From NCBI RefSeq assembly GCF_014837295.1, contig NZ_JACYHB010000006.1, forward strand, positions 124,001 through 188,000: a DNA stretch of 64,000 nucleotides, in the 5' to 3' direction. The notes under the pieces are model-generated. The model was not told where the DNA came from. It searched no databases and was given only the letters and a program-made list of their open reading frames with translations. This document shows positions 8,765 through 62,815 of this stretch, piece after piece. The position numbers and the translations under genes are program-made. The stretch comes from Cellulosimicrobium arenosum. GTDB taxonomy: Bacteria > Actinomycetota > Actinomycetes > Actinomycetales > Cellulomonadaceae. Within the stretch, counting starts at the first letter, position 1, and each line of letters opens with the position of its first letter.

Positions 8765-10708
8765 TCAGGGTCGGCCGTCGTGCCCGGCGGTCCCACCGCC
8801 TCGGAACGCACCTGCCGGGTCCGCGAGGACACCGGCGAACCGCATCATGTCCGGGAGCGTGAGGACCAGCGAGCCGTCCTCGAAGTGCACGCCCTGTGCG
8901 GGCGACCAACGGTTGGTCGCCCGGAGGTAGGAGCGGTCGTCCTGGCGCAGGAGGTAGACGAACGTCTCCGCGAGGACGCGGCTGCCCACGTCGCCGAGGA
9001 AGCTGCCGTCGCCCTGCAGCTCCGCCTCCTTGAGGACGTAGTACCACAGCGGGGTCCCGCCCCCGCCGTCGGCGCGCAGTGCGGCCATCGCGTCGACCAC
9101 GGTCTGCGGGGCGTCCTGCACGAGCCGGTCGGGCGAGAGCGGCTCGAGCCCGAAGGCCCGGGCCACCGCCTCCCCCGTGGGCAGCGCGAGCATGTAGCCG
9201 CGCAGCAGGTTGCGCTGCGCGAGCTGCTTCTGCAGGAGGCTCGCAGTCTGCTGCGCGGGCGTGGGCTCCTGCCCGGGCTCGGTCCCGATCGCGCCCTGGT
9301 TCGTCATCGAGCCGAGCGTGGGCGCGAGGAACGTGTCGATCTTCTCCGCCGAGTGGAACGCGTCGGCATCGCCCTTGTCCACGAACTTCGACCAGTCGAT
9401 CGGCCAGTTCGACGGGAGCACCGGGTTCGGTGGACCGCCCAGGGTCAGCCCGCCGCCGCCCGTGAACCGGAAGAGCTGCTCGAGCGTCGCGAGCCCTGCC
9501 GGTGCGCCCGGCGTGAAGTTGACGTTGAAGTCGTAGGAGTCGCGCACCATCGAGTGGCCGAACCGGAACGCCGCGACCGCGAACTCGAGCGGCATCGCGA
9601 TCGGGTAGCGGGGACGGAAGAACGAGGTGTCCCCGAGGAGCACCGCGTCGAGCACGCCGGGCTTGGTGAGCGTGCGCAGGTAGTCGTTGACGACGAGCCA
9701 CTGGTAGTGCCACCGGACCAGCTGGTTCGCCCGCTCGTACAACCCGCGCTCTCCCGCTGCGCGTTCCCACGGCTCGAACTCGGCGACCCAGTCGACGACG
9801 GCGTTGTGGAACCGGATCATCGCGACGTGGAGCTGCGCGACGACGAGGTTCTCGTCGTTGCGGCCGTCCGGGATCAGGGGACCGCGGTCGGCCCCGCGCG
9901 GCAGGTCTCGCTGCAGGTCGCCCTCGGGAGGGCACAGGACGAACGCCGGACCACCCCCCGGCACGACGAACGGCTCGACCGGGATCCGCCCGAGCCGCAG
10001 CTTCGCCGAGCCCTCGACGAAAGCGGCCTCGCTGCGTGTCGTGCCGCAGTCGGGCTCACCCTCGAACTTCGGGCCGCTGCCGTAGAGCGAGTCGAGGTCG
10101 AGGGCCGGGTGGCGTGCGTTGCGCAGGCTCCGGACGACGACCTTCGGGTCGAAGACCCGGAACGGCACCCGGTCGATGTCGCCGAGCGCCTGGTCGCCGC
10201 CCGGGCCCTCGACGTCGTCGGGCCCGTTGGTGTTGAGCGTGATGTCGTGGTCGATGAACTGGCCCCAGTACGTGTACACCGCCGGCACGTGCGAGTTGCG
10301 GACCGCCGGACCGCCACCGGGCGGTGACGGCGGCGGGGCGACCATCGCGGTACCGAGGGCCTTGAGGTGCTCGACGACGGTCGCGGTCGTGCCGTCGCCG
10401 GCGGCCAGGTGGCCGGCCGGGAAGGTCGACGCGAGCTCGGGGAACAGGTAGTCGAACGCGGTGGTCGAGTCGTAGCGGTGCTCGCGCAGGTCGCGGTAGA
10501 CCGCGGCCTGTGCGGGGCCGAGCAGCGGCGCCTTCGACGACAGGGGGTCGTCCGCCCCGCCGTCCGGGTCGGGGACGTAGGTCGAGCCGTGACCCGTGCT
10601 GCGCACGGTCCGTCCGATCGGGGTCGATGCCTCGTCGACGGCGTCGGGGGCGACGTCGTCGACCACTGCCTCTGCGACTGCCGCCGCCGGGTCCTGGGGA
10701 GCCTCCAT
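8765..10708 (-). CDS. Animal-type heme peroxidase family protein
   Basis: 647 residues from the ATG at 10708 (preceded by AGAGAGG); a longer frame to 10816 runs into the regulatory region. The protein belongs to the animal heme-dependent peroxidase superfamily: distal motif YWGQFIDHD (Trp148-Asp155, distal His154), the region DLDSLYGSG (about 205-212), the helix GRNDENLVVAQLH, and the proximal motif FRFGHSM with the candidate heme-ligand His385. The N-terminal 60 residues are acidic and disordered; no signal peptide, so it is probably cytosolic. Bacterial members (peroxicins) oxidise halides or organic substrates with H2O2; the substrate here is unknown. It sits between rpsO and ribF, outside the usual gene order, with a perfect Crp/GlxR-type palindrome 100 bp upstream. 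Confidence 0.9.
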   Translation of the reverse strand: MEAPQDPAAAVAEAVVDDVAPDAVDEASTPIGRTVRSTGHGSTYVPDPDGGADDPLSSKAPLLGPAQAAVYRDLREHRYDSTTAFDYLFPELASTFPAGHLAAGDGTTATVVEHLKALGTAMVAPPPSPPGGGPAVRNSHVPAVYTYWGQFIDHDITLNTNGPDDVEGPGGDQALGDIDRVPFRVFDPKVVVRSLRNARHPALDLDSLYGSGPKFEGEPDCGTTRSEAAFVEGSAKLRLGRIPVEPFVVPGGGPAFVLCPPEGDLQRDLPRGADRGPLIPDGRNDENLVVAQLHVAMIRFHNAVVDWVAEFEPWERAAGERGLYERANQLVRWHYQWLVVNDYLRTLTKPGVLDAVLLGDTSFFRPRYPIAMPLEFAVAAFRFGHSMVRDSYDFNVNFTPGAPAGLATLEQLFRFTGGGGLTLGGPPNPVLPSNWPIDWSKFVDKGDADAFHSAEKIDTFLAPTLGSMTNQGAIGTEPGQEPTPAQQTASLLQKQLAQRNLLRGYMLALPTGEAVARAFGLEPLSPDRLVQDAPQTVVDAMAALRADGGGGTPLWYYVLKEAELQGDGSFLGDVGSRVLAETFVYLLRQDDRSYLRATNRWSPAQGVHFEDGSLVLTLPDMMRFAGVLADPAGAFRGGGTAGHDGRP

Positions 10709-10807
10709 GGCTCTGCCTCTCTGTGAGAGCGGGGGTGGTGGGAACGCGTGCGAGCGGGGCCACCCGGAGGTACTGGGAGTCACGACCGCGACGGGCACGC
10801 CACGCGG

Positions 10808-10825
10808 GTGTGACACGCCTCACAC
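10808..10825 (-). promoter_or_regulatory. Crp/GlxR-type palindromic operator upstream of the heme peroxidase
   Basis: GTGTGA-CACGCC-TCACAC is a perfect inverted repeat containing the exact TGTGA-N6-TCACA consensus of Crp-family regulators (Crp of Enterobacteria and Mycobacterium, GlxR of Corynebacterium). It lies 100 bp upstream of the peroxidase ATG in a 175-bp gap, facing no other start. Regulation by cAMP-Crp is an inference. Confidence 0.6.
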
Positions 10826-10883
10826 GAGGAGTGAGCGGCCGCGCGCCCGTCCGTGACACGCGCGAGCAGTCCGCCCGGGTGTC

Positions 10884-12476
10884 CTAGCCGCGGCGCGGGA
10901 CGCGCGTCGCGATCGCCACCGCCGCAGCCGCGGCGAGCGCCTGCACGACCACGAGGACCGGGGTGACGGCACCCAGCAGCGCGGCGATCGTGAACGGCAG
11001 GAGGCTCAGCAGCAGGAGGTCGGGGCCCTGACGTGCGACCGCAGCGGCGTTCACCGGTAGCGCGCCCATGGGCGTCGCGAGCAGCGGGCCCGACCAGTCC
11101 GGCTCGGGCCGCAGCGCGCCACGGACCGCGCTCGCGCCGCACCCGACCCCGCCGAGCGCGGCGAGCACGAGCCACCCGGCGGAGCCCGTGGCCAGGGCGA
11201 CCGGGACGATGCCGGCGACGAGCGCGAGGGCACCGGTGGCCGCCGGGACGACGAGCCGTACCGCCCGGACCGCGCGAGCGGACAGCGGCAGGGAGGCGTC
11301 CAGGGCCGGGACCATCTCGGCGTGGCGCGCGCCGCCGGCGCCGAGCCCCGCGGCGCGCATGCCGGCGAGGGCGACGACGAGCGCGAGCCCGGGCCCCGCC
11401 GCGAGGACGGGGACCTGGTGCGCGAGCACGAGCAGCGCGACGACCCCGAGCAGCTGCGTCCACGACGACGACGTGCGGACGAGGAGCACGGCGTCGGCGG
11501 CGACGAGCGCACCACGGGGGCCGCGCACGGCCCGGAACGTCCGGCCGTGCAGCGGCCTGCGCGGGTGCGCACCGGCGTCGAGCGCGCGCCCGAGGTCGCG
11601 CGGGTCCACCGACAGCAACGCCGCGCCCAGCCGGTCGGAGCCACTGCTGCGGGCCGCGAGGACCGGGAGGCGGAGCCGGTCGACGCGCGTCCACCAGACC
11701 ACGACCAGCACGACGGCGAGCACCGCGAGCGCGACGACGAGGGCCGTCACCGTCGGTGACGGTGCCGGGACGGGCAGGTGCCACCCGGTCGCGACGAGCG
11801 CGAGCCCGAGGACCGGGACGCACGCCACGAGCGCGTCACCGACGACCACGGCCGCGCGAGAGCCACGGTGCTGGGCGAGTCCGGTGAGGGCCACCACGGC
11901 GACGGCGGCGGGAGCACCGACGAGGGCGCCGGTGAGCACGCCGGTGGGACCGGCCGCGGCCAGCAGACCCGCGGCAGCACCACCCACGGCGCCCGCGACG
12001 ACGCCCCCACCGGTCGCGCGACCGATCGACACGACGAGCAGTCCGTGGCGGTCGGCGGGCGTCGGCAACCACCAGTGCACCCCGGCGGTGCCGACGCCCG
12101 CGGGGCCGAGCCGTGCCGCGGTCGAGGCCACCAGCCCGAGGAGGACGCACAGCACGAGCAGGAGCACCAGACCCGGGGACAGCGGTCGGGCACCTCCGGT
12201 CCAGGGGTCGGGGTCGCCGCCGAGCACGGCACCGAGGGTCCAGGCCTGCTCGCTCGTCAGTGCCCCACCGACCGCGGTCACGGTGCCGCCGACGAGCAGT
12301 GCGGCGAGCACGACGGACACGACGACGTAGGCGACGTCGGTCACGAGCCGGCCCGCCCCGTGGCCCGCGCGTCGCGCGTGCCACGTCGCGACCCGGGCGG
12401 TGAGGCGACGCAGCTCGCGGCCGGTGAGCTGCTCGTCGGCGTCCGTGCCCACGTCCGGGGCGGCCGTCGACGTCAT
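10884..12476 (-). CDS. DUF6297-like polytopic membrane protein (putative ABC exporter permease)
   Basis: 530 residues from the ATG at 12476, which overlaps the stop of the ABC ATPase gene (ATGA). About a dozen hydrophobic helices are visible, starting with VTDVAYVVVSVVLAALLVGG after a basic 45-residue N-terminus; the protein ends ATRVPRRG. Length, composition and coupling to an ABC ATPase fit the DUF6297 family of actinobacterial membrane proteins, assigned from memory of the family rather than a search. Together with the ATPase it would form an ABC transporter, most likely an exporter because no substrate-binding protein is encoded. Substrate unknown. Confidence 0.68.
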   Translation of the reverse strand: MTSTAAPDVGTDADEQLTGRELRRLTARVATWHARRAGHGAGRLVTDVAYVVVSVVLAALLVGGTVTAVGGALTSEQAWTLGAVLGGDPDPWTGGARPLSPGLVLLLVLCVLLGLVASTAARLGPAGVGTAGVHWWLPTPADRHGLLVVSIGRATGGGVVAGAVGGAAAGLLAAAGPTGVLTGALVGAPAAVAVVALTGLAQHRGSRAAVVVGDALVACVPVLGLALVATGWHLPVPAPSPTVTALVVALAVLAVVLVVVWWTRVDRLRLPVLAARSSGSDRLGAALLSVDPRDLGRALDAGAHPRRPLHGRTFRAVRGPRGALVAADAVLLVRTSSSWTQLLGVVALLVLAHQVPVLAAGPGLALVVALAGMRAAGLGAGGARHAEMVPALDASLPLSARAVRAVRLVVPAATGALALVAGIVPVALATGSAGWLVLAALGGVGCGASAVRGALRPEPDWSGPLLATPMGALPVNAAAVARQGPDLLLLSLLPFTIAALLGAVTPVLVVVQALAAAAAVAIATRVPRRG

Positions 12477-62758: not shown

Positions 62759-62815
62759 GTCGGGTGATACCGGTCACACCCGCTCGTCGGACCGGACCAC
62801 CGGTGCGGAGCGGGC

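Follow-up and report, generated by a model that had tools for sequence, protein, structure and literature searches.

A predicted Crp/GlxR operator beside a promoter-like element upstream of an animal-type haem peroxidase gene in Cellulosimicrobium arenosum

The gap upstream of an animal-type haem peroxidase gene of Cellulosimicrobium arenosum contains a dyad of the form GTGTGA-N6-TCACAC, and the locus thus raises the question whether a Crp-type regulator controls this gene and, if so, in which direction. We analyzed the dyad and its surroundings in the window (the whole stretch of 64 kb), in the genome (3.95 Mb, 33 contigs), and in the peroxidase upstream regions of the genus, the family and more distant bacteria. 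The coordinates of the features discussed are given in Table 1.

Table 1. Features of the peroxidase gene and its upstream gap (window positions).
Feature	Position	Strand	Basis
Gene for an animal-type haem peroxidase (647 aa and a stop codon)	8765..10708	-	Pfam PF03098, translation, genus matches
Probable ribosome-binding site GAGAGG	10716..10721	-	Sequence; aligned orthologues have a comparable AG-rich stretch ahead of the ATG
Crp/GlxR-type dyad GTGTGACACGCCTCACAC, GTGTGA-N6-TCACAC	10808..10825	.	Motif search, shuffles, genome count, congener alignment
-10-like block CTCACTCC (CTCCCTCC in most congeners)	10828..10835	-	2 bp upstream of the dyad; alignment, pattern counts
-35-like block TGTCACG	10852..10858	-	16 bp from the -10-like block; alignment, pattern counts

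The encoded protein matches the An_peroxidase profile (PF03098) over residues 279-394 with E=6e-15 and 55.2 bits against a cut-off of 25, and has this domain in common with the bacterial animal peroxidase (peroxidase-cyclooxygenase) superfamily, e.g. PepA, MopA and CyanoPOX. The unaligned translation (P0001) contains the segments WGQFIDHDIT and AFRFGHSMV, which may contain the distal and proximal haem histidines. No secretion signal was evident on inspection of the translation by eye, and a sequence search of the PDB at 1e-3 matched no chain. The gene order on the minus strand is ribF (14228-13215), an ABC-type ATPase, a DUF6297 membrane protein, the gap, the peroxidase, rpsO (identified by eye) and pnp. 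The gap measures 175 bp from the peroxidase to the DUF6297 stop codon at 10884-10886, and the distance of about 100 bp from the dyad to the peroxidase ATG at 10708 likewise agrees with the first-pass annotation of this DNA. A TAAGAT box precedes rpsO (by eye) and an Actino-pnp RNA (RF01688; 8200-8291 of the window, minus strand; 51.3 bits against a gathering threshold of 47.7) precedes pnp; therefore, an operator in the gap would probably concern the peroxidase alone.

The perfect TGTGA-N6-TCACA core of the dyad (10809-10824) is the only such site in the window, which bears out the full consensus dyad described at 10808-10825 by the first-pass annotation, and none of 100 dinucleotide shuffles contained one. 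At up to two mismatches the window possesses 11 sites versus 10.3 expected, a number close to chance, thus only near-perfect matches are informative. The second-best Crp-type site of the window, GGTGATACCGGTCACA at 62763-62778, has one mismatch. Genome-wide, we identified five perfect sites, the peroxidase dyad among them, and 27 sites with at most one mismatch, compared with 0 and 2, respectively, for the motif read backwards as a control. Each of the 17 analyzed genomes of the genus contains four to eight perfect sites and none for the control motif.

The other four perfect sites of the C. arenosum genome precede genes for cytochrome bd oxidase subunit I (cydA; PF01654, 1e-151), citrate synthase (gltA; PF00285, 1.6e-133), a geranylgeranyl-reductase-family protein (TIGR02032 over its cut-off, with a MenJ model match below the cut-off of that model) and a DUF7933 protein. 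Two of these four companion genes, cydA and gltA, have precedent as known Crp/GlxR targets in relatives: control of cydAB by Crp1 is described for Mycobacterium smegmatis (extract of PMC7739888), and known GlxR sites are described for gltA of Corynebacterium glutamicum (extract of PMC7026483). The 16 letters of the site before the DUF7933 gene (L002:1501-1516) are those of the peroxidase site of Cellulosimicrobium sp. Marseille-Q4280 on one strand.

A search of the genome with the cNMP_binding profile (PF00027, E <= 0.001) found a single protein, encoded at L001:1174-1890; the lack of any Crp-family protein, which the first-pass annotation had named as grounds against its proposal, is not the case. 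The best PDB matches of this protein are Crp/Fnr-family regulators, 3i54 and 3d0s at 4e-81 and 3r6s, 4byy and 4cyd at about 1e-79, presumably M. tuberculosis CRP and C. glutamicum GlxR. The recognition-helix letters ASRETVNKALADFA are identical in the two alignments inspected. The genome also encodes one class III cyclase (PF00211). Given the rarity of the site, its companion targets, and the presence of a single Crp-type protein and a cyclase, the prediction of the dyad as a Crp/GlxR operator is well supported. It has the full TGTGA-N6-TCACA in common with operators of M. tuberculosis CRP (Rv3676), C. glutamicum GlxR and M. smegmatis Crp1, and the genome resembles actinobacterial Crp/GlxR systems in its one Crp with identical recognition-helix letters and in the companion sites at cydA and gltA. 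Unlike in these systems, the target is an animal-type haem peroxidase and the site adjoins a promoter-like element without sigma-70 hexamers. With the dyad, the peroxidase thus joins the likely targets of a regulator that is already well known; no new kind of system is involved.

The remainder of the gap had been regarded as featureless. This does not hold, as the dyad is immediately preceded by a promoter-like element that has counterparts in congeners. In the genus alignment, conserved islands stand in diverged sequence: (T/G)GTCAC(A/G), then 16 freer bases, then CTCC(C/T)TCC or, in C. arenosum, CTCACTCC. The -35-like box of congeners is TGTCACA, TGTCACG or GGTCACG, and the -10-like block of most other element carriers is CTCC or CTCT. 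The pattern [TG]GTCAC-N17-CTC occurs in 19 of the 33 distinct peroxidase upstream regions of the family, with a mean of 0.19 and a maximum of 3 in 100 shuffles. When the spacing between GTCAC and CTC is varied from 10 to 25, counts above 4 are obtained at two values alone, 17 (19 rows) and 21 (17 rows), and the count at 21 arises from the CTC repeat within CTCCCTC. Since the spacing is fixed while the intervening sequence is free, the element has the appearance of two promoter boxes and, judged by its letters, looks like an ECF-type promoter.

Promoters of the ECF41 group are described with a -35 TGTCACA, a spacer of 16 +/- 1 and a -10 CGTC (PMC3426412, in part). The C. arenosum element is similar to them in its -35-like TGTCACG, which has 6 of the 7 bases, and in its 16-bp spacer, whereas its -10-like CTCA differs from CGTC; in addition, unlike in ECF41 systems, none of the identified neighbours is a COE gene or a sigma gene. 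Membership in ECF41 was rejected because of the mismatched -10, and the element is therefore called ECF-like. Two SigJ/ECF41-type sigma factors are encoded in the genome (L145 and L147), both over the SigJ cut-off (NF007214) and both with the WLPEP motif, and TGTCACA-N16-TGTC is found about 680 bp before one of these genes. We do not name a cognate sigma factor, as a genome search with the full C. arenosum pattern hit, apart from the peroxidase, a single place that seems to lie within a sigma-factor gene, and thus yielded no regulon.

We propose, with a probability of about 0.5, that Crp represses an ECF-type promoter of the peroxidase gene from an operator at the start site. The promoter would drive the peroxidase gene, and transcription would start at about 10823-10826, 6-8 bp beyond the -10 box and at the first half of the dyad. 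Crp, its binding favoured by cAMP, would occupy the dyad at about the start site and would block initiation or early elongation. While cAMP is high the peroxidase would be kept low, and a fall in cAMP or strong activity of the sigma factor would release it. The first-pass annotation had given no direction. Repression is expected because the dyad lies over the likely start site and because, for the subset of M. tuberculosis CRP sites that act classically, a place near the start is associated with repression and an upstream one with activation (extract of PMC4117774). The same extract gives +6.5 and +9.5 as the centres of two of the strongest M. tuberculosis CRP ChIP sites, which are taken here for their positions only. 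More tentatively, it can be speculated that the promoter has two inputs, an ECF-type sigma factor (possibly ECF41-related) that would switch the peroxidase on and an overlaid repression by cAMP-Crp at the start site. In that case, a sigma element recurring in the family (19 of 33) would carry a Crp overlay that varies between close species, and the locus would offer a natural series for carbon-status control gained by, or stripped from, a stress promoter.

It is also conceivable, if rather unlikely, that Crp is an activator here and, in a class I or class II position, turns on the peroxidase through a second promoter that lies downstream of the dyad. The approximately 100 bp between the end of the dyad and the ATG leave room for such a promoter, and M. 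smegmatis Crp1 is described as a positive regulator of ahpC (extract of PMC12713383) and of cydA, the latter from two sites between -58 and -101 (extract of PMC7739888). However, a consensus scan of 10600-10950, which expects no hit by chance and is insensitive in GC-rich DNA, found no sigma-70-type promoter, no TANNNT is seen by eye at the expected distance downstream of the dyad, and the element with the fixed spacing stands upstream of the dyad.

Matches to the peroxidase were found in 14 of 17 genomes of the genus and in 63 of 221 genomes of the family. Three of the 14 Cellulosimicrobium orthologues are preceded by the dyad with at most one mismatch at the aligned place: it is perfect in C. 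arenosum and in sp. Marseille-Q4280, and C. terreum shows a single mismatch. In C. marinum, the nearest species, the dyad is decayed, with four mismatches in the slot, and the remaining ten orthologues have a GGTGAGCGGCGCCGTCG-like sequence there. Orthologous upstream regions without the dyad had been named as evidence against the initial proposal, and 11 of the 14 lack it at this threshold. Crp control would therefore be dispensable, and these 11 include the nearest species. The proposed cAMP/Crp control thus receives a mixed answer: the Crp-type protein, the cyclase and the rank of the dyad as one of the five perfect sites of the genome speak for it, and the lack of the dyad from most orthologous upstream regions speaks against it.

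The CTC block is followed after 2 bp by the dyad in all three carriers of the genus, and from the shared slot and this offset we favour common descent of the dyad within the genus. In the peroxidase tree (supports starred), C. arenosum and C. marinum form a group, and the branches of C. terreum and Marseille-Q4280 come before those of nine species that lack the dyad. The notion that the tree favours inheritance from the genus ancestor was rejected, since one gain on the stem plus two losses costs the same as three separate gains.

In the family, the dyad with at most one mismatch occurs in 7 of the 33 distinct upstream regions (C. arenosum, Marseille-Q4280, C. terreum, Antribacter and three Promicromonospora), compared with a mean of 0.065 and a maximum of 1 in 200 shuffles; these shuffle controls ignore relatedness, and the seven carriers occupy five separate places on the tree. 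The dyad label needs five changes on the family tree and clusters weakly (37 of 500 shuffles were as low). The strict promoter element accompanies the dyad in the three Cellulosimicrobium carriers and is absent in Antribacter and the three Promicromonospora. A likeness to it, TGTCCTG-N16-CTCCCTC, is seen by eye in Antribacter, where the dyad again lies 2 bp beyond the CTCCCTC block. Because four of the seven carriers are without the strict element, the geometry of dyad and promoter is drawn from one genus and this by-eye likeness.

The family count started from 58 loci with 34 distinct upstream regions, of which that of P. kroppenstedtii (L058/L078, consisting of Ns) was dropped, leaving 33. 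Loci were taken for 30 matches of the family-genome search, more distant family members being covered where a second search supplied them, and the start of the Antribacter peroxidase was set by hand at an upstream ATG. Two upstream regions are short, namely 163 bp in a record named Sphaerisporangium cinnabarinum, which reaches a contig end so that the absence of the element is uninformative, and 234 bp in C. composti. The second search also supplied a set of 47 loci beyond the family (50 minus L095, L113 and L124, whose upstream regions are short), with 1 perfect dyad, 3 sites when one mismatch was allowed and 11 when two were, compared with means of 0.0, 0.36 and 7.68, respectively, in 50 shuffles. 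Among these loci, the dyad of L122 overlaps a possible upstream start codon in an open frame, that of L112 lies just behind an apparent tRNA end, and that of L107 lacks one half-site base; we base no conclusion on these sites.

The patchiness of the dyad (3 of 14 in the genus) and its decay in the nearest relative speak for an improbable alternative, namely that the dyad binds Crp with little transcriptional effect, as most M. tuberculosis CRP sites seem to do, and is drifting; in the available text of PMC4117774, only a subset of those sites are classical regulatory sites. Against such drift, three species that have diverged in spacer and flanks retain the letters of the half-sites (0, 0 and 1 mismatch), and the dyad is the sole perfect site in 64 kb and lies within a promoter region. 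The least credible alternative by far is a chance palindrome or an RNA hairpin or terminator of the upstream transporter genes, of which the hairpin and terminator readings were rejected: the 18-mer as RNA folds alone at -6.7 kcal/mol, but the fold of the whole gap is no better than shuffles (z -0.14), its minimum-energy structure lacks half-site to half-site pairing, no terminator-like site or T-run is found in the gap, the letters are kept in congeners beyond mere pairing, and the genome and window controls give no perfect sites.

Repression by Crp, if true, would provide a bacterial animal-type haem peroxidase with a testable regulator and a direction of control, would offer a natural comparison of species with and without the operator, and would extend the actinobacterial Crp regulon from genes of respiration and central metabolism to a haem peroxidase; if not, the dyad is one more Crp site. 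The first-pass annotation had called the link unexpected. Our literature searches, which were few and partly judged by title, found nothing linking Crp or GlxR to an animal-type haem peroxidase, and a search for Crp in the genera compared here gave no title on the subject among those listed. The surprise is nevertheless milder than claimed, as M. smegmatis Crp1 already controls ahpC (PMC12713383, in part). Both cases tie Crp to a peroxide-consuming enzyme; the same extract describes positive control of the unrelated AhpC, whereas repression of a haem peroxidase is probable here.

Several further observations concern the compared loci. The peroxidase of C. composti (L020/L111) is about 55-61% identical to the genus proteins and groups with Isoptericola on the tree, yet upstream of the gene C. 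composti hardly differs from the C. cellulans group, which suggests that the coding part of the gene may have been replaced below a conserved promoter. The locus L066, recorded as S. cinnabarinum ATCC 31213, has a peroxidase and an upstream region of the Cellulosimicrobium type, and the matching genome (G008) was placed in Cellulosimicrobium by the genome search; the record name looks wrong. The peroxidase of L118, named C. cellulans DE0111, is at 44% unlike those of the genus, and this record may be misnamed. The upstream regions of L079, L081, L085 and L115 (Isoptericola/Krasilnikoviella) have long leaders with GC-rich inverted repeats and an additional common GAGCGGGTGAAA block before the GTCAC box (both by eye). 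Finally, in L073 and L075 of Promicromonospora a dyad resembling GGTGAAGGCCTTCACC follows a CTCTC block and adjoins the ribosome-binding site; it has two mismatches in P. panici and is possibly another operator.
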